Assembly (NCBI GenBank): GCA_016840025.1
Contig: JAEOTF010000221.1
Coordinates: 1 to 50,765 of the forward strand
Direction of reading: 5' to 3'
Source of the DNA: Candidatus Hodarchaeota archaeon
GTDB lineage: Archaea; Asgardarchaeota; Heimdallarchaeia; Hodarchaeales; YT1-039
DNA length: 50,765 nucleotides
The first letter of the stretch is position 1. The number at the start of each line of letters is the position of its first letter. The notes below the pieces were generated by a model. That model saw only the letters and a list, made by a program, of their open reading frames with translations. It had not been told where the DNA came from and did not search any database. Positions 4,801 through 37,372 of this stretch are shown here, piece by piece. The position numbers and the translations under genes are program-made.

Positions 4801-7800
4801 GATTTTTATAAGTGCTTCCAGTGCTGCTACTCTTACTGGTGCTTTTGAGTTTTCCAAATAGGCCTCTAATGTTTCTAGAGCTTTAGAACCTATTTTAGCA
4901 AACTCATTGATGGCTTGTTCCCTTTTCTGCGGATCAGGCGAAATAATAAGCTTGCTAGCAGCTATTAAAGGTCCGTCATCGGGGTTTGCCTGAATAATGG
5001 CTTCTAAAGCTTCATCTGAAAGATTTTTCAGACCCTCATCAATTTCAGGGGTATCCAGCAGATCAAGGAGAATAGGCGCCGAAGAAGAACTTTTAATGCT
5101 TGCTAATGCTTTAACTGCTGCCTTTTGTTCTTCTAGATCAGCAGTAGAGATCATTTTTCCAATTTCTTTAGCTGCGGTTTTTGCTTCTAATTGACCTAAT
5201 GCGTCTATTGAAGCTAAGCGCACATCACGATTTTCATCAGATAGACCTTTAAGTAGTGGTTCAGGAGGAACATCGATTTTAATTTTACCTAGCACTATTG
5301 TAGAACCTTTACGAATCCGTGAATTGGGGTTTTCTAGTCCTTTAATCGCAGACTCAATACTTTGAGACCCATGATCTACTAATCTCCCAATAGCAGCGCC
5401 AACACGTTCTGTATTGGGGTCTCCTAGAAAATTAACCAATACAGGGATAGCATTTTCTTTTTCCGTTTCTACCGCAGTAATAAAGACTAAATTCCTAATT
5501 TCTTCATTAGAATCTTGACTCATTCCCAATACAAGATCTATTGCCTCGTCAGATGCAATTTTTGAAAGGACTTTCGTGGCATTAATTCGTACATTATCAC
5601 TTGAGTCTTGAAGTGCGCCTTCTATTGGAGGAAGACATATGACTCCTACTTGAGTAAGCATTCCTATTCCTTGCTCTTGAACCTCAGATACTGATTCATT
5701 TAGTTTTTTCATCCCTTCAATAATTTCAGGATACTCCTGAGCAAGCGATTGTAATGCTTTAGACGCCATAGTTCTTATTTCTTCTGCTGGAAACTTTAAG
5801 GCATTAATTAATGGTTGAGTAGTTCTTAACACCATTTCTCTTTCGGTCTTAGTACCTAGTCTAGATACCGCCCATGCAGTTGCACATTGAACGCCTAAAT
5901 TCTCACTTTTAAGAAAAGGAAGGATGAATTTAACATGTTCTTGAGAACCTACCTCACCCAAGACTTCAATTGCACCTTTTTGGGTGAGGGGGTTATCAGA
6001 GTCTAGAATGGCTAGGACTGCGGGAACTGCATCTTTTTCGAAATTTATCAACACTTCAATAATTTTATTACGAACTGTTGCTAAATCAGAGTCTAATGCA
6101 TTTACTAAGGGAGGAATTGCCGCTTTTCCCAACTTTGAAAAAGCCTCTGTTGCTAGCTTTCTGATTTCCTCCTTTTCATCTGCTAAAAAACCTACTAACG
6201 CAGGAGCAACGGCAGGATCGGCAAATTCTATTAAAGTATGAAGAAAAACGTCTCTAATGGGCTTATTTTCTGGTCTTTCAACAGCGGAAGATAAAATCGG
6301 TATAACCGAAGAATCACCAACTTTTGTAAGAGCCTGTACTGCAGTTTTTCTAATATTTATGTCAGAATCAGCTAAGGCTTTAACGACTAATGGTTGTTTC
6401 CCTTTCAACTCGCGATTTTTAATAATTTCAAGGCTTACCAACCGAACTTGGGGATCTTTATCCTGAATAAGACTATCTAGAAGATCTATACTATCCGCTA
6501 AACTATCCGCAAGTCTTTGTGCATCTACGGGTTGACCGGTAAAAAGCTCATTGAAGATTTTTATTAACTCAGTACGCTGATTTCGTTCTCCTAGAACCAT
6601 TACAATCTGACCGATCATTTTCTGTTCGGTACTGTCCTGGCTTTCCCTATATCTCTGGTAAAGAGGGATAACTGCATCTAATTTACCTATTCGGTTTATA
6701 GAATTGATCGCAGCAAGTCTTACATCAAGCGAGGGGTCTTTTAATAGGATATAAAGGATTTTTATGGATTCTTTAGAAGAATTAAAACCTAAAGTTGTTG
6801 CTAAGGTTTCTCTAACAGGCTCAGCTGGGTATTGAGTAAACTGAACAAGTTTCTCAACTTTAAATTCAGGAAAGTTCTTTAAAATATTGAGTGCTTCGCT
6901 AATTACTCTTCCTTGTGCGGTCTCCATGAAAGAATATATCCTATCTAAGGTAGAAGGATCAGCGATTTGTCCCAGTGCAGCTAAAGCGCCTGTTACTACA
7001 AAATCGTTCTTATGATCGAGTGCAGCGAACAAAGGATCTATAGCTTTGGTTTTTGCAAGAGCAGTAACAATCTCTTGTCTTATCTTGAGGTCTTCTTCTT
7101 TAAGACCTTCAATTAGAGATGGAATGGCTTCTGGTGATGCTTGGTCTTGAAGTGCACGAGCACAATTCATTTTAACAATATCATCTTTGTCTTTTAAACC
7201 AACAATCAAAGTTTCTAAGGCAAGAGGTTCTCTAACGTGTCGTAAAGCTAAGGTAGCATTTCTTCGGACTTCTATGAATTTAGAATTTTTCAATGCATTA
7301 ATCAGGGGTTCTAAGGCGGATTTATCAGCACTAGTAGTTAGAAATTCGGACGCAAGAACAGCTATCTCTTCATTTTTATCGGTTAATAGGTTAAGAATAA
7401 CAGGGATGGCTGTAGGAACAGATTTACCTTTTAATCCCTGAAGACAACCTATCCTAACTTCAATGCTCTTATCTTCCAATGCTTGAATCAGTAATGGAAG
7501 GTCTTCTTCTTCCCCGAATTTTCCAACAACATAAATAGCTGCTTTGCGTACAGCTTCATTTTTGTCATTAATATTATTTTTCAGAAGTTCAAGTACAGCA
7601 GGGCTATCTATTCCAATTAAGGCATTAGCAGCACATGTACGTAGAGTTTGATCCTTTTCAAGGAGTAATTGGGAGATTGAAAAAGCGCTTTGGCTCCCAC
7701 CGAGCTTACCTAAAGCTATACAGGCAGCCATCTTTACATTTTTGTCCTTCTCACGGAGAGCTGTACTTATAGAGCCTATAGCGGGTTCCCATTTCATGGC

Positions 7801-8064
7801 ACCTAATGCTTCGATCGCAGCAAGTTTTACAGACGTTTCTTTGTCGCTTACTGCCATAAGTAGCCCCTGTGCAGCGCTTTCTGTGCCAATCAAGCCTAAT
7901 GCCGTGACACAAGCGATTCGTACATCGACCTGGCTTCGTGAAAGTGCGTGAGTTAGAGGCCAAATTGCGTCTTCACTTTTTGTCTCTCCTAAGGCTTTTG
8001 CTGCTTGGATTTGAGCTGCTTTATTTCCAGTTTCAAGAGTTGCGGCTAGTAATTCTATACTCAA
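1879..8064 (-). CDS. Giant HEAT-repeat protein with C-terminal zinc ribbon
   Basis: This is a 2061-residue protein made almost entirely of HEAT/PBS-lyase-type repeats of about 31 residues, with recurring patterns such as DVRIACVTALGLIG, EVRKAAIYVVGKFG and NVRSAAINAGKKL, giving an estimated 55-65 repeats. The C-terminus carries a CxxC-x10-CxxC zinc ribbon (Cys2039, 2042, 2053, 2056). HEAT solenoids are protein-protein scaffolds and no enzyme domain is visible. There is no signal peptide or membrane segment, so it is probably cytoplasmic. The start is TTG at 8064, supported by a GAGGG Shine-Dalgarno sequence about 7 bases upstream. Most archaeal HEAT proteins are a few hundred residues, so the size is exceptional. 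Repeats on this scale recall eukaryotic scaffolds, but similarity to any specific one (adaptin, importin) was not seen. Confidence 0.85.
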   Translation of the reverse strand: MSIELLAATLETGNKAAQIQAAKALGETKSEDAIWPLTHALSRSQVDVRIACVTALGLIGTESAAQGLLMAVSDKETSVKLAAIEALGAMKWEPAIGSISTALREKDKNVKMAACIALGKLGGSQSAFSISQLLLEKDQTLRTCAANALIGIDSPAVLELLKNNINDKNEAVRKAAIYVVGKFGEEEDLPLLIQALEDKSIEVRIGCLQGLKGKSVPTAIPVILNLLTDKNEEIAVLASEFLTTSADKSALEPLINALKNSKFIEVRRNATLALRHVREPLALETLIVGLKDKDDIVKMNCARALQDQASPEAIPSLIEGLKEEDLKIRQEIVTALAKTKAIDPLFAALDHKNDFVVTGALAALGQIADPSTLDRIYSFMETAQGRVISEALNILKNFPEFKVEKLVQFTQYPAEPVRETLATTLGFNSSKESIKILYILLKDPSLDVRLAAINSINRIGKLDAVIPLYQRYRESQDSTEQKMIGQIVMVLGERNQRTELIKIFNELFTGQPVDAQRLADSLADSIDLLDSLIQDKDPQVRLVSLEIIKNRELKGKQPLVVKALADSDINIRKTAVQALTKVGDSSVIPILSSAVERPENKPIRDVFLHTLIEFADPAVAPALVGFLADEKEEIRKLATEAFSKLGKAAIPPLVNALDSDLATVRNKIIEVLINFEKDAVPAVLAILDSDNPLTQKGAIEVLGEVGSQEHVKFILPFLKSENLGVQCATAWAVSRLGTKTEREMVLRTTQPLINALKFPAEEIRTMASKALQSLAQEYPEIIEGMKKLNESVSEVQEQGIGMLTQVGVICLPPIEGALQDSSDNVRINATKVLSKIASDEAIDLVLGMSQDSNEEIRNLVFITAVETEKENAIPVLVNFLGDPNTERVGAAIGRLVDHGSQSIESAIKGLENPNSRIRKGSTIVLGKIKIDVPPEPLLKGLSDENRDVRLASIDALGQLEAKTAAKEIGKMISTADLEEQKAAVKALASIKSSSSAPILLDLLDTPEIDEGLKNLSDEALEAIIQANPDDGPLIAASKLIISPDPQKREQAINEFAKIGSKALETLEAYLENSKAPVRVAALEALIKINDNQAVNSIVVRLQDPDTVVVQTALKALGILGVPEIADRLIPFLAASEIETQLTAHEALEKLKPKEVLIEAMEHKDITIRQHSILLVGEINATEAIPPIIEFLRDSKNVIRAAAAKALGMLQAENATDSLIQVLSDKKPNVVASAVLALSQLKAIRAIPWINYISNSPEPLIQNASKGAKEKIREDENLVPILNAYEQLFSSDYDTRQDGIRILSTLDSEFKDGILEGLKIPDDIIKALILQVIGLWRKKEYTSLVLEYVTGYSKDVKISAIHALGLLKNVDGIHPIVEYGLSSKDETLHTEAINALVNIGSDGAETIVSFLEDKNKFVRAGATQVLGELKTELYFDSILALVDDKDDEVKIASLNALKNLNNPAAVLKVASILSKASSQVRIIAIDLLRTLKGHEGLYQIFEMSRLSVPQVAEAANICLQEFKTMEFVNEVLTTYTDLTDNPEADVEVHIRNLAPLGQSVVPLLSGAIYSKNTKIKELSIQVQSELGAKEYLHLWQKAMDDKGANVRIASATALNRLSDESSIEVLVKGLHDKHPEVKRLSLDAIMRIGPPCIQLLLEHVTAKDAYVREAVFTFLAIYGDSSSFSYLLNGLEDKNGNVRSAAINAGKKLDESRLIPFLVALEGVEKDSNVQSMIQDTITIFSQNTAYEAAIQLINTIVQATDQEDEVTTAVKELAQLGSEMLPVFRSGLQSPNDRIRAGLALVLSEMKDGESIPQLILFLQEKPTLLRDAATKGLPNFGATCIESLKDLTKHKDKDVRKRITEILSNIDTEEARIILAELISDKDSSIGKEAILALRLQGDVSVPHIIAGLQAKEKDVRKECIVSLRDLQGEGLVDALVKGLNDSDEDVRVLTAETLPIKATADVTPYLIEAIELKGKRSKMAILSAMGAIADERAIPAITSYLSDKNKQIQGTAVTALGLVQGRSRTPKEEKPAETINCSQCGHELPKGAKFCLECGNKIS

Positions 8065-24395: not shown

Positions 24396-25736
24396 ATGCC
24401 TGAAGAGCCAAAAAAAGAAGAAGTTCCAACTATTGCGGGAGAGGAAATAAAAAATGAGTTAAAAACGGTTGCAGAAACATCTAAAGCAAAAATAGAAGAC
24501 AAAACGGAGAAATGGAAGGAAGATGTAGGGAAAAAATATGGAGATAAAGATAAAATAGGAACTTCTGATTGGAAAAAACCCCCAAAAAGTATTGAACAAG
24601 AACTAAAGTTTGAATGGGATGCAATCCACGCAGAAATGCATTATGTATGGAGGTCTTTTGGGAGAGAAATCATAGGCTTCTGGGATCCTGTTGAAATCAT
24701 ATTTTTGCTCATCTTGTTATCACTCTTCGCGTTCGCACTTTTAGGTCTTACAGTGGCAATTTTACCAATTATTATAGATATTTTTCTGGGGCCATCAACG
24801 AAAGACAGTTTTAATAACTCAGTAAGTAGTTTTTGGAGGGGTTCGGGGGCACGTACGTTTTTTGCCCTATGTGGTGGTGTGCTTTGGCTCATCAGACAAA
24901 TGAGAAAAAGTGAATTCGAAAAATTTACTCGAAAAGCCAACCAACTAAAGAAAGTAACCTATATATTTGGAACTACTCCATATGCAGAGCAAGTTGTTTT
25001 TCACAACATTCGACGTTTAGGACTTGAGGAACGTATTGCAATTATTGCCGATCGAGAATTCTTGTGGGTTACTGGAGCAAGAGGAAAATGCCCTGCTTAT
25101 ATCGTAACGAATAAAGAAGAATTTCGTAAAGGAAATATGTATGAAAAACTCAAATTTAAGAATGCAGAACGTATTTTCATTTTAGCTGATAATGAGGCAA
25201 TGAATCAAGATATTTTAACTGGTGTACGACAATGGACGGATGTTGAAGTAGTACTCTTATCCCAGTTCGCCCCTGGATTTTTACAGCATATTGATCTAGA
25301 AAATCAAAATATTAAAATCATCAAGGATTTGGAGGCAAATATCGAAGATCTTGTTTTCTCTCTCAGTTTGGATATGGCTATGCCATTAGGTGGAGCTGTC
25401 GAAATTCCAGCACCCCGTAGTTATATAGGTAAACCCGCAGAAATGATAAACAGTAATTCTAATCTAAGGTTACTGAGCGTGATAGGTATTCGGCGTGGAG
25501 ACGATATTTTGGACGCTTGGGAGATTCTACAGAAAGATGACTTTGTTATTTTAATTTCTGGGCATAACACTAACTTAAAACGCACTATTCGAGTTGGACG
25601 TGAATTAAAGGATAAATTTTCACCATTTGAAATAATAACACTCATTTTCTTCGGCTTGATATTCTTTTTATTGGGTTATTTCGTGTTTGGTCCTCTTTTA
25701 TCAGGTATTATATCCCTTATAACAGGATTATTTTAA
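24396..25736 (+). CDS. Membrane protein with RCK (TrkA-N/TrkA-C)-like domains
   Basis: This 446-residue protein has a charged, Lys/Glu-rich N-terminal about 85 residues, then two hydrophobic segments (IIFLLILLSLFAFALLGL and ARTFFALCGGVLWLI). An RCK_N-like Rossmann domain (about 185-325, VTYIFGTTPYAEQVV, ERIFILADNEA), an RCK_C-like domain (about 335-400) and a C-terminal hydrophobic pair (IITLIFFGLIFFLLGYFVFG) follow. The normal GxGxxG nucleotide loop is replaced by GTTPYA. No potassium-channel selectivity filter (TVGYG-like) is present. A classic channel or Trk subunit is therefore unlikely; a regulatory or scaffold membrane protein related to CASTOR/POLLUX or RCK families is more plausible. 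A GAGGT Shine-Dalgarno sequence lies before ATG 24396. The next gene is also RCK-like, 12 bases downstream. Confidence 0.7.
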   Translation: MPEEPKKEEVPTIAGEEIKNELKTVAETSKAKIEDKTEKWKEDVGKKYGDKDKIGTSDWKKPPKSIEQELKFEWDAIHAEMHYVWRSFGREIIGFWDPVEIIFLLILLSLFAFALLGLTVAILPIIIDIFLGPSTKDSFNNSVSSFWRGSGARTFFALCGGVLWLIRQMRKSEFEKFTRKANQLKKVTYIFGTTPYAEQVVFHNIRRLGLEERIAIIADREFLWVTGARGKCPAYIVTNKEEFRKGNMYEKLKFKNAERIFILADNEAMNQDILTGVRQWTDVEVVLLSQFAPGFLQHIDLENQNIKIIKDLEANIEDLVFSLSLDMAMPLGGAVEIPAPRSYIGKPAEMINSNSNLRLLSVIGIRRGDDILDAWEILQKDDFVILISGHNTNLKRTIRVGRELKDKFSPFEIITLIFFGLIFFLLGYFVFGPLLSGIISLITGLF

Positions 25737-25748
25737 GGAGACATTACA

Positions 25749-26516
25749 ATGTTCCGTGGATTCCGGCAAAGAAAAAAATTCAAAAAATTCGCAGAGGAAG
25801 TACAGGAAGCAACAGAACAAAGATCAGATGTAATATACATTATTGGATACAACATCTACGCTGAGAAATTCGTTCAAAAACTTATTGAACTAGGGGCAGA
25901 GAATCGAACCGCGATAATATCGCCAAGAGAGCTTTTATGGATGTCTGAACTCCCTGAAAGTATCAAAATCCTGATAGAAGATAAAGAAGAAGAATTTTTA
26001 AAACCTAGAATGTATGAGTCAATTGGTTTCAATAATGCAGAAAAAATTGTGGTTCTGCTCGAAGATCCAAACATACTTCAAAGTATAATTTCCCACGTAC
26101 CAACACATACTGATGCGGAAATTATTATGCTGTCCCGTTTTGCGCCTCAATTTGTGAAATACATAGCGAAAACTCAAAGAAGTGCAAAAGTACGAATTGT
26201 TGAGGATGTTCGTCCAATAGTTCGCGAAATATTAGGATTATTTGAATTCGATATGTCCTTTCCACTGGTTTATTCTATCCCTGTAGAAGAAAAGTGGGAA
26301 GGGCTTACAATAGATAAATTAGAAATTCCTGGAGCAGTTGCTCTAAAAATTGAACGTGAATTCGAGCAAGAGGGTAAAAAAGAAAAGAAAATCAGATATA
26401 TTTCACCAAAAAATGTTCCTTTACAGTTTGGGGATAAAATAATCTATTATATTACAAAGAAAGGATCCTTGAGAACTTTTGTTTCAGCTCTATCAAATTT
26501 AAGTATTGAAAAATAA
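25749..26516 (+). CDS. Soluble RCK (TrkA-N/TrkA-C)-like protein
   Basis: This 255-residue protein is similar in pattern to the RCK part of its upstream neighbour. It has a Rossmann-like start VIYIIGYNIYAEKFVQKLIE, again without a GxGxxG loop, the strands KIVVLLEDPNILQS and IIMLSRFAPQFVKYIA, and a C-terminal TrkA_C-like domain (about 175-255). There are no membrane segments. It probably forms a heteromeric gating-ring-like assembly with the membrane partner at 24396-25736. The 12-base spacing with a TAAGGAG Shine-Dalgarno sequence implies one operon. The ligand is unknown, because the usual NAD/ATP-binding signature is missing. Confidence 0.7.
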   Translation: MFRGFRQRKKFKKFAEEVQEATEQRSDVIYIIGYNIYAEKFVQKLIELGAENRTAIISPRELLWMSELPESIKILIEDKEEEFLKPRMYESIGFNNAEKIVVLLEDPNILQSIISHVPTHTDAEIIMLSRFAPQFVKYIAKTQRSAKVRIVEDVRPIVREILGLFEFDMSFPLVYSIPVEEKWEGLTIDKLEIPGAVALKIEREFEQEGKKEKKIRYISPKNVPLQFGDKIIYYITKKGSLRTFVSALSNLSIEK

Positions 26517-26652: not shown

Positions 26653-27798
26653 CTAGGAAAAGATATCTTCGATCGGATCAAGAAGATTAAACTTCTGGGC
26701 AGGTTTTGCTTTCTGTATTGAGTTAAGAATTTGTCGCATATAGTTTGCAGCTTTTATAACATGGTCTTTAGAAAATACTGAAATATGAATTGGTGGTTCA
26801 GGCATAGTCCAGCCTGACATTCGGCCCAGTGTTCTCATATCAGATGCTACTGCCTCGATATCGTGCTCTTCAGCAAGAAGCTGATGAAGTATTATATCTT
26901 CAATCTCCTTTTCTGATATTGAGGCGTGAATGAGTGGTTCTGGACCCGCTCGCGGGTAAGTCCGTTGAAGTGATTCCCACGTTGTATCAAGTTCAAGTAA
27001 TGTTGGTCTCATGTCATTTAATAATCTCAAAAAGGCTCGATGATCACGTGATCCCTCTTCTTCATTAACAGATAAGGCAACATATGATACGAGTGCACGT
27101 GAGAATAGACGACAATTAACTAAACTGAAACCTTTTAAAAGCTTAGTACCTTCCGAAGCTCTTCCAGGCACAACCTGTGTGTAGAATTCTTTTTCTAAAG
27201 CGTTAACAACGATTTGTTCTGTTATTGAGAACGGTATTTTATCACTAGAGATTTTTACAAACCGTTCAACTATTTTATAACCTCTCGAATGGTAAGAGAT
27301 GCCACCATTGGCTAGGGCATCGCTAAATCCTTTTACGATAGCACTACTAAAATCTGAGAGGTGTTCACGGATTAAAACATTCAAATCTTGTTTTGTTACT
27401 ACTATGCCAATTGGATAATTCTCATAAGGTACAACTGGAGAAACTTCGAGGGCTTGGGAAATTGATGAGGGCCAAAATCCTTTTGTTGTAGAATCCATCA
27501 CTGTAATGATCCCTTCTGCGGTTTCACCATATGCTGTCCTTAGTGAACTCCATTTTTCCTGGCCACCAATAGGCAATAGAAGCGAAAACAATCTTCCTCC
27601 ATCATACTCTAAACGAAGGTACTCTGTTTCAATAGTACCGCCATATTCTTCTCTATATTGAACCCTACGGTCAGTTAGGGCAGCTAATTTGGTAGCAAGA
27701 GCGGTTTTTCCTCCTCCTTGACTGCCAACAACAAGGAGCCTTCCTGCGGAAAGTTTCTCGGCCTTTTCTGCTTTCATATATGTCATAATAAGACACAT
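26653..27798 (-). CDS. Atypical Arf/Ras-like small GTPase with long helical C-terminal extension
   Basis: This is a 381-residue protein. The N-terminal about 190 residues form a G domain: P-loop GSQGGGKT (25-32), G3 region PIGGQEKW (76-83) and G4 TKQD (135-138). The G3 motif matches the DxGGQ of Arf/Sar-type proteins except that the aspartate is Pro76; Gln80 is retained. G4 has Thr for Asn. The remaining about 190 residues are helical with no recognised fold. This is not a plain small GTPase of the Ras superfamily; the length and altered motifs are like divergent Asgard GTPases. The start is ambiguous among ATG 27798, 27786 and 27777. Two large unknown proteins lie directly upstream on the same strand and are its likely partners. 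Confidence 0.75.
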   Translation of the reverse strand: MCLIMTYMKAEKAEKLSAGRLLVVGSQGGGKTALATKLAALTDRRVQYREEYGGTIETEYLRLEYDGGRLFSLLLPIGGQEKWSSLRTAYGETAEGIITVMDSTTKGFWPSSISQALEVSPVVPYENYPIGIVVTKQDLNVLIREHLSDFSSAIVKGFSDALANGGISYHSRGYKIVERFVKISSDKIPFSITEQIVVNALEKEFYTQVVPGRASEGTKLLKGFSLVNCRLFSRALVSYVALSVNEEEGSRDHRAFLRLLNDMRPTLLELDTTWESLQRTYPRAGPEPLIHASISEKEIEDIILHQLLAEEHDIEAVASDMRTLGRMSGWTMPEPPIHISVFSKDHVIKAANYMRQILNSIQKAKPAQKFNLLDPIEDIFS

Positions 27799-28099
27799 TC
27801 TTACTTTTTTCCAATCTTGGTCTATTTTCTTGGTATTGTGATAAAAATATTTGTGAAATAATAGATGGAAGACAAACTCCTACATAAGTAGTCTCTGATA
27901 ATAGCCATATGTTTGTTTTTTGATAAAATCCAAGTGATTCTGAAGGTTTACTCATTGTATCATTCGTTCATCTTTGCTTAATAACGAATATAATTCTCAG
28001 GCAATTATTTCTTCTCGCTTCACTTCACTTAGATATGCCTAGTTTAGATACTTTTGTCAACTAAGAAAGCTCAACGATTTATGGAAGGATCACATCACC
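27799..28099. other. Intergenic region before the GTPase gene
   Basis: This AT-rich gap of 301 bases lies between the 656-aa gene and the GTPase gene on the minus strand. No gene or clear repeat was seen. It is long enough to hold a separate GTPase promoter. Confidence 0.3.
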
Positions 28100-30070
28100 T
28101 CATAGGTTTGAAATAACCACTTGAAGATCTTTGGGATCAGTCGCGCGAGCTTTATCTAGAAGAAGATCCAGATGATTACGTTTTGGGCCTCGTTCAAGGA
28201 ATTTTCGAGGACGAAAGATGACTTCAACAGGATTTATAGCCTCTTGTCCATCTTTACTTACAGTTCTCGTTTCTAGAAAAGAGAGAACGGACAGCCCGCT
28301 TTCAGAAGGACTGTAGAAGTTAATAAAACTATTACCACTGATATCAAACACCACTTGGCGAAGATGGACGTTACCAGCAAGAGCACTCCGCTGAGACGAA
28401 GAAACATTGAAAGAATCTTCTACCAGTTTTTCCAAGTTCCTACACACATCCCCGTACCACGGATAACCGCTGATAAGTACATGACGATATTGAAGATCAA
28501 AATCTTTAGCCGCATAGATTGTTATTTCATTTGGTGACAAGGTCCTTGGTTTATAAGAAATATCAAGCTGAAAAGCGGGTGTAAATTGCTTGGATGTTAC
28601 AAGGCCTGAGCGATCTGTTTCAGCAAAGATATTTCGAACAATTTTTTGAGCGGTTGACTCCTCATGAACTAGAGTTTCTTCAAGAATCTCTACTAACATA
28701 CGGCCAGCGTGATTCCATGTGTTACGAGGAAGCTTTTCAGTTGCAATATAATTGCCCATTCGTACATCATCACGGTCCACGCGGCCACTTAGGATAGCGC
28801 TAGACAATCGCTGACATGCTTCCAGAAGATCAAATTTGGGTTGTCTCTCAGAGATCAAAAGCATTGTCAATCGCAAAATCTCAGTCTTAATTCCTGTAAA
28901 ATCATAGATCCAAGCCTGTTCGGGTAGGCCTAAACATTCAACTGTGAATTGAGAAGTTTGCATGATAACAGCATGTTGTTTTAGTTCATGAAATGGTGCC
29001 AAAACAACCTCAAAAAGCTCAAAAGACGATTGAGGCACATTACCGAGAGTTTCATGTCTTTTGTGTTTATCCATGAAGGACAAGCCAAATAGATGGCGCT
29101 TTTTGGTGCTGTCTTTGAAGCGTGAAGAAACGATTCCTGTTTTTTGTTTTTCAGTCCCATATGAAGGCTTTTTTTCTGCCTTTACTTTCTTAGACAGCCA
29201 ATCAAGAATAATATCTGGTCTAAAACGGTCGCTTTCATACATATATGCAGAAGCAAACTCATCCTTTTCAATTAAGGTAAATCGTCTACCTAAAAACTTT
29301 TCAGCAAGATAATCGAGTTGTTTAGTAGTGAAACCGGCCTTACCCTTGTATTGTTGCGCTTTTGCTTTATCATATGCATTCTTTATCTCCCACATTTCCT
29401 GGCTATCAGGAGTAGCTAAAACTTTCTCCAATGAGGCAAAACGAAAAGTCTCTTCTGAAGCTAAGGCGAATATTAAAGCATCGGTATATTTATCCTTCCT
29501 TTTAAACTCAACATTTGGACCATAAAAAGTCTTTGCATCATCTACAGCGTCAATAAGCGCCTTCCTATAGAGATGGGGATACAGTACCAGAGCTAGCAAT
29601 GTAGTAATATCAGCACGGTTACATTTGTTTAGAAGGTTCTCTAGTTGTCCCTCAATTTCATATCGGAGAATCTTGATTTCATTAAAAAGGAGTCGAGTTT
29701 CTTCATCTTCTTGCACCTGCTGCCAAGAAGTTATCCTTTTTTGTCTAATGTTGAATGCAGCAGCAATTTGAAGTTTTCGAAGAGTTTTTTTCTTCTCATC
29801 GAGTCCAACAATTTTAAAAACATCGTTAAGTGGATTTAACCACTGTTCTATGAGGCCAAGTGACTCATAAAATTTAACTGTAGCAAATGGTTTTGTCTTT
29901 CTTATTATACCATTCATTGAATAATTGCCATCTTCTAGGTTCTTAGGAAGGTTTCTTGCTCGTCTTATAATATCTAATTGGGGAGCAAAGAACTGGATAC
30001 CTTTTACTCCAACATCCCGGCGAAGTAAAGTTTCCATATCTGTTAATTTTATACCTTTATCGTTGGCCAT
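28100..30070 (-). CDS. Large protein of unknown function (656 aa), GTPase neighbour
   Basis: I do not recognise a family. The N-terminal about 450 residues are charged and helical (LLNKCNRADITTLLALVLYP, SQEMWEIKNAYDKAKAQQYK). The last about 200 residues show alternating strands (TPAFQLDISYKPRTLSPNEI, ITIYAAKDFDLQYRHVLIS, LRQVVFDISGNSFINFYS) like a small globular beta-rich domain. It has no signal peptide, membrane segment or zinc site. A GAGGT Shine-Dalgarno sequence precedes ATG 30070. It lies 66 bases downstream of the 615-aa gene and 300 bases upstream of the GTPase. Conserved gene order with these two would be the best evidence for a complex. The operon is near topoisomerase VI, but a link to DNA topology is not shown. 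Confidence 0.6.
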   Translation of the reverse strand: MANDKGIKLTDMETLLRRDVGVKGIQFFAPQLDIIRRARNLPKNLEDGNYSMNGIIRKTKPFATVKFYESLGLIEQWLNPLNDVFKIVGLDEKKKTLRKLQIAAAFNIRQKRITSWQQVQEDEETRLLFNEIKILRYEIEGQLENLLNKCNRADITTLLALVLYPHLYRKALIDAVDDAKTFYGPNVEFKRKDKYTDALIFALASEETFRFASLEKVLATPDSQEMWEIKNAYDKAKAQQYKGKAGFTTKQLDYLAEKFLGRRFTLIEKDEFASAYMYESDRFRPDIILDWLSKKVKAEKKPSYGTEKQKTGIVSSRFKDSTKKRHLFGLSFMDKHKRHETLGNVPQSSFELFEVVLAPFHELKQHAVIMQTSQFTVECLGLPEQAWIYDFTGIKTEILRLTMLLISERQPKFDLLEACQRLSSAILSGRVDRDDVRMGNYIATEKLPRNTWNHAGRMLVEILEETLVHEESTAQKIVRNIFAETDRSGLVTSKQFTPAFQLDISYKPRTLSPNEITIYAAKDFDLQYRHVLISGYPWYGDVCRNLEKLVEDSFNVSSSQRSALAGNVHLRQVVFDISGNSFINFYSPSESGLSVLSFLETRTVSKDGQEAINPVEVIFRPRKFLERGPKRNHLDLLLDKARATDPKDLQVVISNL

Positions 30071-30136
30071 GTTGAATAAGACCTCTTCTGCATTATATTT
30101 TGTGGTAATCCCTTTTTCATTTTTAGGAGTATAATA

Positions 30137-31984
30137 TTATTCTTCTTTATCTTCGGCTTTTGGACCACCTATAGGTTTAGATTCACCTTTATCTAGTTCT
30201 GAATCAATTAATTGCCATGTATCAACTAACACTAACTCTTCTTCTGTGTCATCGATTGGTATTACTTCACTTACCATTTCAGCCTGACTTTGGAAATAAG
30301 CTTCGTATATTGAAGTTGCAATCTCCCATCTTCTGCTTTCATTTATATCAGCATCACCAAACATCAACTCAGTGCTCTTTAATGAAAGCATCCATGCATA
30401 GATTTCCACAGGACGAATAGATTCAATAGCCTTACCTCTGGTCTCAATTAAACGAACCACTTCCTTCCCGAATTGTTTAACCAGAACTTGGGGCGTATCT
30501 GTCACGTGGGCAAGTTCTCCGCTCAGTGTGTCGCCCAAAAGCGCCAATTGATCCTGAACCCGCTTTTCCATTTCTTCGAAGTATGTTTCGCCTCTACTCA
30601 CGAGTATGCCATGAGGGTATCGAAGAATCTGACTCATTTGAGCAATTCCTTCATCATCACGGGAAAGGTCTTTTATTTCGAGGAGGCGTTCTAGAAGATC
30701 ATTACGTACAGGATTTAAGACTTCCTTACGGAGATTTGCCTTTCTTCTACTCATAATAGTGCCCCGGAGCTGTTCCTGGCTTCCTACAGGAAGAGGGATT
30801 TGGGCTTCAAGTTTTTCGATGTCCGATTCTATTAAGGATAATCCAGATTCCATTAAAATATTTTTCAGCTCCAACTGAGCTTGGTCAACTGGAATAAAAA
30901 GTTTATCTAGAGCATCAATCAATTCATCTCGTCTTTGAAAAAGAAAGAAGAGACGGCTAGCATAATCATCATAAGCTGCACTTTTGGCATAATCTGTCCT
31001 AAGAGTAAGAAGTAATCTAGCATAGATGATTTTAAACTTAGCATGAAGTAGTGCACGTTGGATTAGTTGGGATAATGTTCTTGTTCTACGATCCTCATCG
31101 AGCCAAGTAGCCATTTCATGCAGTATGTCCGCATTTTTTGTGTGAAAATATTTCCTAGCTTTTCGATCATCTTTCAAAAGGGCGTAAAGCCAAAGCTGCG
31201 TGATCCTAAGCTTATAGAAGTCTACATTCCCTTGACCGATGACTTCAAGAAGTAGATTATCATGAGTTTTTAATCGAGGATGTTGTTCTCCGATGAGGGG
31301 ATAATCACCACTACTTTCTCCGACGAAACGTCTTCGTAAGTATTTATCCGCTTTTTCTGGATCCAAAACGATGTCCATTACAATCTCAATGTCATCCTCG
31401 TTGAGACTGAAGAGATGATTACTCAAGGCAACCAAGAATCCATATAGTTCAACTAAAGGTCTTCCAGTAGGAATGATAGTCCCTGCAACAAGTTTCTCTA
31501 ATTCAAACTGGTTGATTTCACCATTGGCAGTTCGAATAAGATCGATAGGTGGATCTAATACACTTAACACAGTTTTTCGTTCATTTATAAAAAGACCAGA
31601 GACAGTTTTAGTGTCGGGGTCATATTGTGACCTTCTAACAATGTAATCTAGTTCTTCTTCTAAAATACCTTTAATAAAATTCGTACCATCAGCCGCAAAA
31701 CCTAAGTGTGCATACCAAGGGCGTAATTCTCCTCTCCCCTCAGTTTCCCATGATCGGGAAATAATGGTTTGACGAATACCAGAAGCATCAAAGGCATGAA
31801 CACTATCATCACCTGCTAAGGATCTTTTAATACTAGCTGCGCTTCCACTCATCATTCCTGCTAAAAAGGGATATCTTTGGACGTACAATTCACCAAAAAT
31901 TCCAAACCATGTTCTTTCTTTACTAAGAGCTAGCCATTCTACGCGGGCTTGTTCAAAGGGATTGAGGTCATCAGGGGCAGGCAT
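30137..31984 (-). CDS. Large helical protein of unknown function (615 aa), first gene of the GTPase cluster
   Basis: I do not recognise a family. The protein is almost wholly alpha-helical and acidic. Long amphipathic and coiled-coil-like stretches fill the C-terminal half (about 380-480, IEKLEAQIPLPVGSQEQL, NDLLERLLEIKDLSRDDE), and an acidic tail ends in KAEDKEE. There is no signal peptide or membrane segment. ATG 31984 has GGAG about 11 bases upstream. Together with the 656-aa gene it forms a tight pair, 66 bases apart. The size and helicity fit a scaffold or GTPase effector/regulator, but that is inference. Confidence 0.6.
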   Translation of the reverse strand: MPAPDDLNPFEQARVEWLALSKERTWFGIFGELYVQRYPFLAGMMSGSAASIKRSLAGDDSVHAFDASGIRQTIISRSWETEGRGELRPWYAHLGFAADGTNFIKGILEEELDYIVRRSQYDPDTKTVSGLFINERKTVLSVLDPPIDLIRTANGEINQFELEKLVAGTIIPTGRPLVELYGFLVALSNHLFSLNEDDIEIVMDIVLDPEKADKYLRRRFVGESSGDYPLIGEQHPRLKTHDNLLLEVIGQGNVDFYKLRITQLWLYALLKDDRKARKYFHTKNADILHEMATWLDEDRRTRTLSQLIQRALLHAKFKIIYARLLLTLRTDYAKSAAYDDYASRLFFLFQRRDELIDALDKLFIPVDQAQLELKNILMESGLSLIESDIEKLEAQIPLPVGSQEQLRGTIMSRRKANLRKEVLNPVRNDLLERLLEIKDLSRDDEGIAQMSQILRYPHGILVSRGETYFEEMEKRVQDQLALLGDTLSGELAHVTDTPQVLVKQFGKEVVRLIETRGKAIESIRPVEIYAWMLSLKSTELMFGDADINESRRWEIATSIYEAYFQSQAEMVSEVIPIDDTEEELVLVDTWQLIDSELDKGESKPIGGPKAEDKEE

Positions 31985-32118: not shown

Positions 32119-33177
32119 TCAGGAAGGTATAACTAACTTGTCGTTGAGTTTGGGAAAGAAACATTCGAAGTGATTGTCGTCCATGTAATCAATGACTCTG
32201 AGTGCTGCTTGTTTTCTGAAACGAAATATTCCATCTGAAGAGAAATTGGTATCATATTCTCTGAGCCCAAGTGCAGACGAGAATTGTGAACGAAGACACT
32301 CTCGATCTTCAGGAGGAAAGCCATTCGTATAGAGCTTAAGCGAAGATAGTCGTTTATCGACCTTTACTGTCCGCCTATATTTATAGTCGGTGACGTAATT
32401 ACCCTTGTTCATGTATCCATCCTCCACAAAATAGATCAGGACAGAGAAGGGATGAAAATAGAGATTGTGTGGGCATACTTTGATCCACTTTCTTCGAGGA
32501 TCTTTCTGAAGTTCTTCGGCAGTAGGCTTTCGATACCAAGCGTTGTGGAGTTCGAGAAGTTCTATGGATGCTTGAGTAGTAAGTCTCCAAGCTTTATATA
32601 ATCTGTCTGGATAATGATCCTTTAACCTGATTCTGACTAACCTGATTCTGACTTTATACCCTGCTTGTCTCCACAGATCAGCAACGAAGTCAATATATTC
32701 CCTACAACTCTCTTTTTGAACGAGGATGTACTGAGCAGTAACAGCAAATCGCGCAAGATGACCATCACCGAGTAGACTGCCAGTTAGAAAGAGTATTAGA
32801 CGATAGGATAGTGGTATAGACACCCTACCTCTTTCCTTCCGAAAGTCTAGGCTCTCTATATTATGATAGTCTAATACAAATTTTATTATGGGAGTCGGAA
32901 CTTGCAGATGTTTGCCGATATTAGTGGGTGACATACGTTCTTCAACATGAAGAGAGTACATCTCTTGGGGTGAGAGAAGTCGATCCAATGTGGTTCTGTG
33001 ATACGAAGTCCATAGTTCACCGAGGAGAGTGGATATTGTTTCCTCAAGTGGTTGAGGAGGAAGAGATACGAGGATTCCTTCTAATTCCGCATATCTTCCC
33101 TTCCATTTCGTCATTCCACTTATAGTGAGATTATTTGGGATTTTCTTTCTTCTGTTTATGTTTCGTATCTTTGTCAT
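32119..33177 (-). CDS. Free-standing LAGLIDADG homing endonuclease
   Basis: This 352-residue protein has an N-terminal segment with an HTH-like element (MSPTNIGKHLQVPTPIIKFV). Two LAGLIDADG-type motifs follow: LTGSLLGDG (about 130-138) and LIYFVEDG (about 248-255). After the second comes the usual KLYTNGFPPEDRECL strand/helix. The catalytic acid is the Asp of each motif. Such enzymes cut long DNA sites and spread themselves. Here it stands alone between topoisomerase VI and the unknown operon, with no intron or intein seen in either. A 15-base tandem duplication (32623-32652) lies inside the gene and yields VRIRLVRIRL. Confidence 0.8.
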   Translation of the reverse strand: MTKIRNINRRKKIPNNLTISGMTKWKGRYAELEGILVSLPPQPLEETISTLLGELWTSYHRTTLDRLLSPQEMYSLHVEERMSPTNIGKHLQVPTPIIKFVLDYHNIESLDFRKERGRVSIPLSYRLILFLTGSLLGDGHLARFAVTAQYILVQKESCREYIDFVADLWRQAGYKVRIRLVRIRLKDHYPDRLYKAWRLTTQASIELLELHNAWYRKPTAEELQKDPRRKWIKVCPHNLYFHPFSVLIYFVEDGYMNKGNYVTDYKYRRTVKVDKRLSSLKLYTNGFPPEDRECLRSQFSSALGLREYDTNFSSDGIFRFRKQAALRVIDYMDDNHFECFFPKLNDKLVIPS

Positions 33178-33321: not shown

Positions 33322-33726
33322 ATGACAAGAGAAGAACTATCGGAAAAGCTTCAAAACTTGGGAAATAAAATTGACTCTCTCACTATCTCTACTGATCAGC
33401 TGATTATATCTTCTAAAGAATTGAATGACAGCATTAATACTGCTCACAGCAGAATAAATACGCTAGAAAAAGAACTAGAGCAAAAAGCAAAACAAAATGA
33501 GCAACTAATGACAGAACAAAATGATCTGGCTTCAAAGTTAGAAGAATTAGAAGAAAAAAATTCTGATCTCGTAGGAGAAAAGAGAACGCTTGAAATTGAG
33601 TTGGAAGGAAAAACAAACGAATTAGAACGAAACCGCTCAATATTAGAGGGAGAAAAAAAGAAGGTACAAGAATTAGAAGACCAAATCCGAATACTTAGAG
33701 AAAAAAGCCAAGCTGAAGAACTCTAA
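33322..33726 (+). CDS. Small coiled-coil protein
   Basis: This 134-residue protein is almost entirely heptad-like coiled coil rich in Glu, Lys, Leu, Asn and Gln (NTLEKELEQKAKQNEQ, LEIELEGKTNELERN). There is no enzyme motif or membrane segment. The GGAGTG Shine-Dalgarno sequence before ATG is good. It is the only plus-strand gene in this stretch, convergent with top6A and divergent from the homing endonuclease. Role unknown. Confidence 0.7.
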   Translation: MTREELSEKLQNLGNKIDSLTISTDQLIISSKELNDSINTAHSRINTLEKELEQKAKQNEQLMTEQNDLASKLEELEEKNSDLVGEKRTLEIELEGKTNELERNRSILEGEKKKVQELEDQIRILREKSQAEEL

Positions 33727-33848: not shown

Positions 33849-35216
33849 CTAAATCGTTACACCTAATTCACCGAAACGAGTGGGTAGAAATTCTTTAACG
33901 ACATAATCTATTTTCCCTTTTGCATTGAAGGCTTGTTGTTCCGATTTTTTCTGATGTAACCAAAAATTATAGAGTTCTTCCCGTTCCTTTTTGGCTCTAA
34001 ACGCACTGTATCGCGGATCAGGTGGCAAACGATACTTTATTTTTACCTTGGATTCATCGATATTCCTTTTTGCTCTTTTTCTCAACTTCGAAAGTAGATC
34101 AGTCTCGGGTTTGAATAGCTTCCCCGCAGGTTTCTGAGCTTTAAGAATTTTTTCTTTCTTTTCTAAGTCTTCCAGCATCGGACCAAGTATAGTACGCTGG
34201 TCCAGTGTAGATCCCTTTTTTCTACGGGCAGGGGCAGCAGACCCATATAAGAGATCACGACATCGCTTAAGATCCTGAAAATTGAATTTATCATAAGGAA
34301 GTTTGTATTCTTCGATGTCTGAGGCCCAAACACCTAACCATTGAGCATTAGGACATGCTAACCCTTCAACGTGAGCTGCTTCAGCGGATCCATAGCGAAT
34401 CACTGTATAGATGTGTTCTCCCCATGGATCACCGTCTACAAAAACATAAACTGGTAAATCAAGTCCTCCTTCCGATTTTGAATCACTAAAACGACGAAGT
34501 AAGCGACGTGCGCCTCGTGTCGCCTGACCCATCAAACCCACCAAAACTGCATTAAAATTTTCATGGACACGCTCTTCTACAAAGCGATTATACATGCCAT
34601 CGGTTTCTACAGCAATAACTCGCTCGGAGTTGCTATCCAAAAGCTCGGAACGTATGAGGCGAGAACCAATTGCTTGCCCATCAGGATTGATTCCGAGATT
34701 TAGATCTCTTACTTCACCAGTTATTGGATCAGTCATTCGAACATCCACATCTCCAAAAACTGTCCCTCGTGAAGCGGGGTTAACATGAAAATCTTCACGA
34801 GCGTATCCAAGCATAGCTTCCGTGTCGACAACGACACCATCAGATTGGTCTTGATCATCAAAGAATTTGGCGAGAAAAGACTCGCTTGAATAGTATAAAC
34901 CTCTCAGAGTCTCTGTTCGACCCGTAGTTATTAATCCATTCGCAAAAGTCATCACCCAAAGACTCTGTGCCATTTTCCGAAGATGAGCGACATTAGCAAG
35001 AGAACGACGGGTTTTTTTGTCCATTATCACATATTGACGCTTTTCTTCAGAGAATGTAATGTTTGAAGTACTTCTTGAAGCCATTTCAAGATAGGGGGTT
35101 TTTCCTTGTTCAACTAAGTCGGCAATTGATTTACCTTTTTCTTTAATAGCGACCATAACAGTCTTTTCGCGTTCATTCAAATCCAACGTTCTTACTAAAT
35201 CGCTTTCTTCCGACAT
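33849..35216 (-). CDS. top6A: DNA topoisomerase VI subunit A (Spo11 homolog)
   Basis: This 455-residue protein carries the Spo11/Top6A 5Y-CAP motif TETLRGLYYSSE, where Tyr108 or Tyr109 is the DNA-linking residue. The Toprim acidic motifs are VETDGMYNRF and FVDGDPWGEH. With Top6B it forms an A2B2 type IIB topoisomerase that relaxes and decatenates DNA in an ATP-dependent way. The length is larger than the usual 360-400 residues owing to a Lys/Glu-rich region at about 325-400. Its ATG overlaps the TAA of top6B by one base, showing coupled translation in the order B then A. Confidence 0.92.
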   Translation of the reverse strand: MSEESDLVRTLDLNEREKTVMVAIKEKGKSIADLVEQGKTPYLEMASRSTSNITFSEEKRQYVIMDKKTRRSLANVAHLRKMAQSLWVMTFANGLITTGRTETLRGLYYSSESFLAKFFDDQDQSDGVVVDTEAMLGYAREDFHVNPASRGTVFGDVDVRMTDPITGEVRDLNLGINPDGQAIGSRLIRSELLDSNSERVIAVETDGMYNRFVEERVHENFNAVLVGLMGQATRGARRLLRRFSDSKSEGGLDLPVYVFVDGDPWGEHIYTVIRYGSAEAAHVEGLACPNAQWLGVWASDIEEYKLPYDKFNFQDLKRCRDLLYGSAAPARRKKGSTLDQRTILGPMLEDLEKKEKILKAQKPAGKLFKPETDLLSKLRKRAKRNIDESKVKIKYRLPPDPRYSAFRAKKEREELYNFWLHQKKSEQQAFNAKGKIDYVVKEFLPTRFGELGVTI

Positions 35217-37372
35217 TAGAGTTCACCTTTTATTTTCAGAGATTCAAGACGCTTTTTCTCGTTTTTCAGAAGGGCATCAAATGCGGGTTTCGTATTTTTC
35301 CCGCTAAGTTGATTTGTGAGAGTAACAATATGAGGTATCCACTTCCTATATTCCCGATAACGAGCAGCTGCTTTTTCTCGTTTTTCTTCAGCCGCAATGT
35401 ATTTTCCAAGACGTCTACAAGTGATTCGATAAGCGAGGGCTAGCTCTTTCCGGATCTCTGGAATGTTAGCAACGGATTCTTTACCCAATTTACCATAAGG
35501 AATTTTAGTGGAAGCCAAATGGGCTACGAAAAGAACAGGATGATCACCACGAATCCCATATGAACTGAGATTGATATCTTCGTCTAAAGCCTTCCACATA
35601 ATACAGCCTTTGGGATCATATAAGAGGGGAATGCGATTTGCAAAACGTCTTATGTTAAGACCAGGAGGTATGCCTTCGCTTAGGTTAGATTCATCATCAT
35701 CTGCTAGGGTTGGGCCAAGAATAATTTCGGATGTTTCTCCTCCTTCGTCTGTTTCACTTTCAGCTTCTTCTTCGGTTATACGTTTTGCGCGTCGTATTTT
35801 TCTCTTCTTACTTCCATAAGCTACTCCTGATTCAATAATAAAAGCGTGGCCACCGTATGCTTGAGGAGGTCGAGATACAGTAGTGAAAAATTCTGGGTCA
35901 TATTCCTTTTGAATGCCCCTAAGGAGTAATTCTGATCCAACAGGACTTAAGACAGAACCATCAGGAGGAAGAAATCCTGCTTTCTTTGATATGGTGAACT
36001 CTAAAGTACAACGACCCAGAGAAGTTTTAAATGAATATTTTCCCGTTTCTCCAGGTTTAGGTGTACCTACGGTTCTGAGGTGCATAATCTTCTCTTCTTC
36101 AAAGTCCAAATCTTGCTGATCTTCTTGGACAGTGAAGGGCTTGAGAAATAAAGAAATAGCAACAGTAAAACCAGCGTCTACATTTTTACGCATTTTACTC
36201 AAAATACTATGGATTTTTTTCTCAAAATTATTTTCAACGGCACTAACAAGGTCATATTTCTCAACGAATTGATCAACCTGATGTAAATATCTCGCTAACT
36301 CTCGTTTCTCTTTTCGTCTAACATCAGATGTTCGTTCTCCCCAATTTTTAAATTCACGATAAAGCACTCGAATTTCATCCCCAGTTAAAGGCTTTTGTTG
36401 GATATTTCGATCGGGTAAACCGATATCTTCTAAGAATTCTTTAGCCTTGGCCTCACCGACTCGTTGGAAGTTTTCTTTCATCCAGGTTCTGATGTAACGC
36501 GCATTTGAGTCACTGATCATACGCTTAATTTCCTCTATATCAACACCGTGGGGATGTGGGAGGGTTTCTTTAGGGAGAGGAGGCATTTCTTTAGTAACGT
36601 TTTCAAAGACCAGCTCTTCTATTTCTTCCGCCTTTTCTAATGGACGAGGCGGAAGAAAGCGAAATCGGGCGTATGGAGTGATTACTGCTGTATCTTTCAA
36701 GTAGTTCATTATCTTGCGCTCTGCACCTTGCCCTTTTCCATAACCTGTTCTCCATTGCCCCTCTAATTCGAATTCTAGAAATGTAAATGATGGATAGTTA
36801 TTCCAGTCGCTAAGGATCTCATTTCCCTGTTTTTGGCTCTTTCTTTTCATTTGCTCATTTGTAAGGTCGGTTTCAAATTCTATGATAGCTTCATTTCGTT
36901 GAACATCTATACGCATAATTTTTTCGGTAATTTCTTCTGTTAATAGATTCCTACTGATTACATGAGTTGGCCTATTTGTTGTGATTTGCCCCCATAATAG
37001 GCTCATCGCCCCACCAAGTCCGAAGTGCCCCCGAGACTGGCGAATACCATATTTTGTACCTGAGAGCGCCTTTCCAAAAGCCTTATTAATTTGTTCAGCA
37101 GTCAATCCAAGTCCGTTGTCAAAAATTCGAATTCGAAAAATTTCATTGGAACGAACTTCTTCAATTTCTACCCGAATGTCTGGAGGAACACGTGTAGCCT
37201 CACAGGCATCTAAGCTGTTCTCAAATAATTCACGAAAGGAGGTATAGAGGGCTTTTCCAGGGTTATCAAAACCAGCGAGTTCAGGATTTTTGCGTAAGAA
37301 TTCAGCTGGGGAGATTTCACGAAAATCTTGCGTAACAATTTCTAATGAGCTTTCATTAAGGTCGCTTTCCAA
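35216..37372 (-). CDS. top6B: DNA topoisomerase VI subunit B (GHKL ATPase)
   Basis: This 718-residue protein has the GHKL ATP-binding motifs: N-box RELFENSLDACEA (about 47-59), G1 DNGLGL (85-90) and G2 RGHFGLGG (114-121), with KALSGTKYG nearby. A helix-two-turn-helix region and the transducer domain follow. A basic/acidic low-complexity insert (about 540-580, rich in Arg/Lys then Glu/Asp) makes it longer than typical Top6B proteins (about 530-620). The start is TTG 37372 with AGGT about 8 bases upstream. It is transcribed with top6A. Confidence 0.92.
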   Translation of the reverse strand: MESDLNESSLEIVTQDFREISPAEFLRKNPELAGFDNPGKALYTSFRELFENSLDACEATRVPPDIRVEIEEVRSNEIFRIRIFDNGLGLTAEQINKAFGKALSGTKYGIRQSRGHFGLGGAMSLLWGQITTNRPTHVISRNLLTEEITEKIMRIDVQRNEAIIEFETDLTNEQMKRKSQKQGNEILSDWNNYPSFTFLEFELEGQWRTGYGKGQGAERKIMNYLKDTAVITPYARFRFLPPRPLEKAEEIEELVFENVTKEMPPLPKETLPHPHGVDIEEIKRMISDSNARYIRTWMKENFQRVGEAKAKEFLEDIGLPDRNIQQKPLTGDEIRVLYREFKNWGERTSDVRRKEKRELARYLHQVDQFVEKYDLVSAVENNFEKKIHSILSKMRKNVDAGFTVAISLFLKPFTVQEDQQDLDFEEEKIMHLRTVGTPKPGETGKYSFKTSLGRCTLEFTISKKAGFLPPDGSVLSPVGSELLLRGIQKEYDPEFFTTVSRPPQAYGGHAFIIESGVAYGSKKRKIRRAKRITEEEAESETDEGGETSEIILGPTLADDDESNLSEGIPPGLNIRRFANRIPLLYDPKGCIMWKALDEDINLSSYGIRGDHPVLFVAHLASTKIPYGKLGKESVANIPEIRKELALAYRITCRRLGKYIAAEEKREKAAARYREYRKWIPHIVTLTNQLSGKNTKPAFDALLKNEKKRLESLKIKGEL

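Follow-up and report, generated by a model that had tools for sequence, protein, structure and literature searches.

The A-B-G cassette and its relatives

The Candidatus Hodarchaeota contig JAEOTF010000221.1 (assembly GCA_016840025.1; its full 50,765 nucleotides are the window referred to below) carries on its minus strand three adjacent genes, named A, B and G here, that may form a dedicated GTPase module. Gene A (30137-31984) encodes 615 amino acids, gene B (28100-30070) 656 and gene G (26653-27798), a Ras-fold GTPase, 381. All three have an ATG start, and their order along the minus strand is A-B-G, with 66 bases between A and B and 301 between B and G. A preliminary description of this DNA had reported three minus-strand genes standing together here with the 66-base spacing, and the open reading frames (ORFs) were found as it described them.

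An initial scan of genome contigs for G identified four loci, titled Hodarchaeota or Heimdallarchaeota, and profile searches covered 116 genomes around one of these four. A and B were each found in eight of the 116. G has matches in 75 of them at E<=0.001, and its scores fall into two groups: the best matches in eight genomes reach 563-717 bits, and the rest stay at or below 42 bits except for one decayed G of G003, at 194.5 bits. The eight genomes are identical for all three genes (G001, G002, G003, G004, G005, G009, G011 and G012), a joint presence and contiguity that is more than chance. The preliminary description had held that a system would be doubtful if the genes were not neighbours in related genomes; in all eight of these other carriers A-B-G is contiguous and in the same order, with masked bases hiding part of A in G002. 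In six of the seven unfused relatives the spacing lies between a 21-base gap and a 4-base overlap, and in G012 the called ORFs have overlaps of 23 and 29 bases. Flanking genes vary between lineages while A-B-G stays. On a wider scale, eight of the 227 phylum genomes and eight of the 14 order genomes have B, and 8 of 58 genomes of the class have G at E<=1e-40.

Two natural fusions join A to B. Locus L004 of G004 encodes both as a single 1212-amino acid ORF, and the database protein P0023 (1110 amino acids, partial) is the second case; from these fused sequences it is very likely that A and B act together. The cassette has also been duplicated. G001 has two: contig C382, which holds A, breaks off within B at profile position 432, and contig C2 starts with B from position 433, so that C382 and C2 are probably neighbours and the cassettes probably stand in tandem. 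In G003 the decayed C-terminal remnant of another G lies beside the cassette (L003:5678-6149). An open frame of 23,308 amino acids on contig C10 of G005 comes with a run of N (10,000 N in the 20 kb examined).

Searches of a protein database, each scoring roughly the top 8,000 candidates and each counting the window's own protein, gave at least 57 B, at least 85 G and at least 6 A proteins, A being clearly undercounted. Among the matches listed, the named members are mostly Hodarchaeal, Heimdallarchaeal or Promethearchaeotal, with single members named Kariarchaeaceae, Odinarchaeota, Thorarchaeota and Calditrichaeota (names as deposited), and LC_3 has a G (P0124). Locus tags of B and G are consecutive in all eight assemblies that print both. 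In ACFFB3 an A tag (00960) and a G tag (00950) are two places apart, and the A tag of ACE5OZ (26010), on a contig of 4,724 bases, is far from both G tags; these two assemblies have two G tags each. The longest-contig size of 25 of the 57 B clusters matches that of a G cluster, suggesting that these B and G genes may share a contig.

The GTPase and its two likely partners

G is a member of the Ras superfamily by fold, since it passes the curated cut-off of Pfam Ras (31.2 bits against 21.6, E 1.9e-7) and its structure model, with a mean predicted local distance difference test (pLDDT) score of 86.6, has the Ras fold. Its database names include 'ADP-ribosylation factor-like protein' and 'GTPase KRas precursor'. 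The canonical G1, G2 and G4 motifs and the G3 Gln are present, and the G3 Asp is absent. In the G3 motif (27550-27579, minus strand; residues 74-83, LLPIGGQEKW) Pro76 takes the place of the Asp, as had been noticed in the window, and Gln80 is kept. This Pro proves to be a family trait: P-x-G-G-Q is found in 84 of 85 G proteins, which is every one of the 84 that include G3, P0148 being a fragment without it. An alignment of 69 sequences (the window protein and 68 of the 84 other family proteins) has Thr55, Thr58, Pro76, Gly79, Gln80, Lys136, Asp138 and Arg172 in 69/69 and, with one gap, Lys31 in 68/68; none has the Asp of DxxG. The G4 motif (27385-27396, minus strand; residues 135-138, TKQD) had been described as odd for its Thr in place of Asn, but it is ordinary, because it falls within the consensus [NT]KxD as given in the text consulted (PMC4316618).

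The best-scoring GTPases from outside the family (22 loci, 23 rows) all retain the Asp, mostly as DI[GA]GQ or DTVGQ, and the residue thus appears to have been lost from a Rab-like ancestor of G. With its P-loop, switch Thr, Gln and TKxD kept, G should still bind GTP, and to judge by its motifs its handling of Mg2+ must do without the usual G3 Asp. The preliminary description gave G a helical tail. In all 50 matches listed, the G model aligned to whole Ras/Rab chains, with starts at 10-17 and ends at 359-371, so in the model residues ~173-343 (26770-27282, minus strand) are a mostly helical insertion of ~170 residues that follows beta6/G5 and precedes the last Ras helix (344-361), not a tail. 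Mean conservation is 0.65 in the insertion, 0.63 in beta4-beta6 and 0.81 in the G3 region.

Neither A nor B passes the cut-off of any Pfam or NCBIfam family, in agreement with the preliminary description, which recognised neither; nor did they fall into known unrelated families, the outcome it had named as contrary, in the sequence libraries searched. PHROGs gave a best row of E 0.09 for B and none for A. Against PDB sequences (E<=10) the B profile had three rows (best E 0.21) and the A profile two (best E 0.49). Pfam rows across 37 family members are scattered, the best (E 0.0039) occurring in two members; the fusion alignment has 37 rows, made up of the 2 fusions, 13 A and 22 of 42 B. Pieces of B had no Pfam row up to E 10, including Roadblock/LC7 (PF03259), and hhalign against 28 Asgard roadblock sequences gave probabilities of at most 0.2%. 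One B cluster, P0010, carries the source name 'Mg2+ and Co2+ transporter CorA' and has no entry in its precomputed Pfam list. The C-terminal half of B, searched against 222 genomes, had rows of E 0.02-4.7 in eight genomes beyond the eight carriers. Relatives of B outside the clade were rejected, the rows being taken as chance; five loci were read, and three resemble one sugar-nucleotide dehydratase by eye. An anti-phage defence system was likewise rejected, since at E<=1 none of A, B and G has a PADLOC row. At the level of sequence, orphan status is supported for both A and B in the libraries searched.

The folds of A and B were read from a model of the L004 fusion (mean pLDDT 73.3). A is modelled as all helical, with low confidence across most of fusion residues 32-161. 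The N-terminal half of B (29111-30070, minus strand; residues 1-320) is also helical and is the least conserved part of the protein; the better conserved C-terminal half is modelled as alpha/beta, with two longin-like units. The first of these (28628-29092, minus strand; residues 327-481) runs beta-beta-alpha-beta-beta-beta-alpha-alpha and holds most of the invariant positions of B, for example GLxxxDxH, ELKQ, AWxxD, ILRxT and PKFDxLE. The second (28145-28588, minus strand; residues 495-642) is of lower certainty. No such unit is seen in A, whose N-terminus is poorly modelled.

The units of B were judged by the longin order of elements, which the model fits; structural matches are weak. VIA rows on the C-terminal half, the first unit included, are to CPLANE/Fuzzy-Inturned chains only. 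Longin helix differences, as described in the part of PMC10933270 cited here, also entered the judgement. The best Foldseek match of the fusion by E-value is a KICSTOR chain (E 0.26, probability 0.05). The 50 fusion fold-search matches listed include no roadblock, Mon1, Ccz1 or HPS chain, an absence that is uninformative, as is a Pfam Longin search of six genomes that found no match even in controls. From the model we infer two longin-like domains in the C-terminal half of B. The 'two helical partners' of the preliminary description thus hold for A, and in B the C-terminal half departs from them.

Neighbouring genes in the window

The genes top6A/top6B (33849-37372, Pfam/NCBIfam matches) lie next to the cassette in the window, as had been noted, but this neighbourhood is not conserved in any of the eight cassette genomes. 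Their best top6B matches, about 35% identical to the window Top6B, are on another contig or 0.4-0.9 Mb away (~0.4 Mb in G002 and ~0.9 Mb in G003), and a link of top6 to the cassette was rejected. Between gene A and top6A stands an isolated LAGLIDADG endonuclease-like ORF (32119-33177, minus strand; Pfam LAGLIDADG_2, 35.1 bits against a cut-off of 25), and a small coiled-coil-like ORF (33322-33726, plus strand) also lies between gene A and top6A/top6B.

The window Top6B has 718 amino acids and is ~35% identical to a long-frame Top6B of relatives. In G003 topoisomerase VI subunit B is found inside a frame of 2312 amino acids (L099:1796-8731, minus strand), and open frames of 2312-2319 amino acids with Top6B are also present in G004, G005, G006, G009, G011 and G012. 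The long frame has a RAD51D_N match and helix-hairpin-helix rows C-terminal of the transducer domain, and it adjoins ORFs that by eye resemble GyrB, GyrA and Top6A. Elsewhere in the window, 1879-8064 (minus strand) encodes a 2061-amino acid protein of mostly HEAT repeats with a zinc ribbon at its C-terminus. A gene pair at 24396-26516 (plus strand) encodes proteins of 446 and 255 amino acids that are alike by eye and have no Pfam family over cut-off; the 446-amino acid protein, the first of the pair, appears membrane-spanning by eye.

Possible role of the cassette and known systems

There is about an even chance that A-B-G is a GTPase module restricted to one clade, with A-B as a docking platform dedicated to G and acting as its regulator or its effector. 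The module would belong, so far, to one order of Heimdall/Hodarchaeal Asgard archaea. A would be a helical scaffold forming one unit with B, and G would dock through its switch regions onto the conserved longin-like half of B, its helical insertion making an additional contact to the platform. A-B would then set or read the nucleotide state of G as it cycles. This reading draws on the shared occurrence in the same eight of 116 genomes and the contiguity in all eight with changing flanks, on the fusions (L004 and P0023), the consecutive B and G tags, the duplication in G001 and the decayed G of G003. It draws as well on the motif residues of G, which apart from the Asp are retained wherever an aligned sequence has a letter, and on the C-terminal half of B with its longin-like element order, CPLANE/Fuzzy-Inturned rows and higher conservation. 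The preliminary description proposed a GTPase with an effector or scaffold complex; the fusions make a unit of GTPase and scaffold likely, with A-B as either effector or regulator.

If A-B only reads the state of G, it could be an effector or coat-like scaffold recruited by GTP-bound G, which is possible, though we hold it tentatively. Arf recruits adaptors made of helical solenoids and longin subunits, and the modelled A (helical) and B (with longin-like units) would suit such a role, as would the retained catalytic Gln. The switch-1 motif required for tri-longin exchange is also missing from G, and this bears directly on another proposal, that A-B exchanges the nucleotide of G by the chemistry of the tri-longin Rab guanine nucleotide exchange factors (RabGEFs), in which the platform remodels switch 1 while Mg2+ is expelled by a basic residue of the substrate. 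Exchange driven by pairs of first longin domains (LD1) is known (PMC12383261, in the portion consulted), and B has weak structural matches to Fuzzy-Inturned chains. But B shows two longin-like units, not three, and the model, poor at the N-terminus of A, gives A no such unit; and if Thr55 is the G2 Thr, the basic residue of the Tyr-Lys/Arg motif, just before the conserved Gly-Thr, is Gly (58), Ala (6) or Ser (5) in all 69 aligned G. On that assignment tri-longin exchange chemistry would not be available to G, which makes an exchange factor of this kind unlikely and leaves docking, effector and GTPase-activating-protein-like roles.

A, B and G could also be co-inherited neighbours that share an operon for loosely related tasks and form no GTPase complex. 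Descent alone can preserve gene order, the known carriers are all in one order, and in the window 301 bases separate G from B. The persistence of A-B-G amid varying flanks, its joint presence in so few genomes, the duplication of the whole cassette in G001 and the A-B fusions speak against this, and there is little chance that it is correct.

Asgard genomes are rich in small GTPases. In MK-D1 their genes are not generally beside roadblock, longin or TRAPPC3 genes, according to the part of PMC10933270 cited here, and this separation makes partners hard to assign. The cassette pairs a GTPase with its likely partners in one unit, so the set can be tested directly, and it comes from an archaeal group close to eukaryotes. 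It is conceivable, if somewhat doubtful, that it represents an Asgard-specific switch, in which an Asp-less Ras-fold GTPase with a large helical insertion works with a purpose-built two-subunit tandem-longin platform, the set being a counterpart in prokaryotes, whether independent or ancestral, of the longin platforms that control eukaryotic membrane traffic. The invariant change of Asp to Pro, in a protein that retains the catalytic Gln, would give Ras-fold switches another way, after that of MglA, of working without their usual Mg2+ ligand. If the fold of B is as modelled, B may be an unknown partner with a fold that complex cells use to control Ras-like switches.

MglA resembles G in having a Ras fold, lacking the G3 Asp and retaining the Gln, and its partner MglB is of the roadblock/longin type of fold that B may have. 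The G3 of MglA is TVPGQ or GTPGQ (PMC4316618, in the text consulted), whereas that of the G family is LLP[IV]GGQ.KW; MglB is a small roadblock protein, whereas B has 656 amino acids; and the profile-nearest GTPases outside the G family are Rab-like, with D-x-x-G-Q. The G3 motif, P-[IV]-G-G-Q across the aligned sequences, was the ground for rejecting membership of G in MglA. The tri-longin (HerMon) RabGEFs Mon1-Ccz1, HPS1-HPS4 and Fuzzy-Inturned/CPLANE are large paired subunits on one GTPase, as proposed for A-B, with three longin domains to each subunit. Their first longin domains pair, and switch 1 of the substrate needs the Tyr-Lys/Arg motif, as far as the consulted portion of PMC12383261 goes. 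B may share longin-like units with them but differs in the number seen in the model and in having no sequence match, its partner A is helical in the model, and G differs from their substrates in switch 1. The Rab- and Rag-like small GTPases of Asgard archaea, some with fused roadblock or longin domains (PMC10933270, in the part cited), belong to the Ras superfamily as G does, and G is unlike them in the lost Asp, the insertion before the last helix and the fixed linkage to A-B. Among the titles and abstract starts listed in the literature searches, none describes the A-B-G set. The GTPase alone has names in the databases; with A and B it would be a small GTPase that has partners of its own, in a combination unmatched by the families tested.
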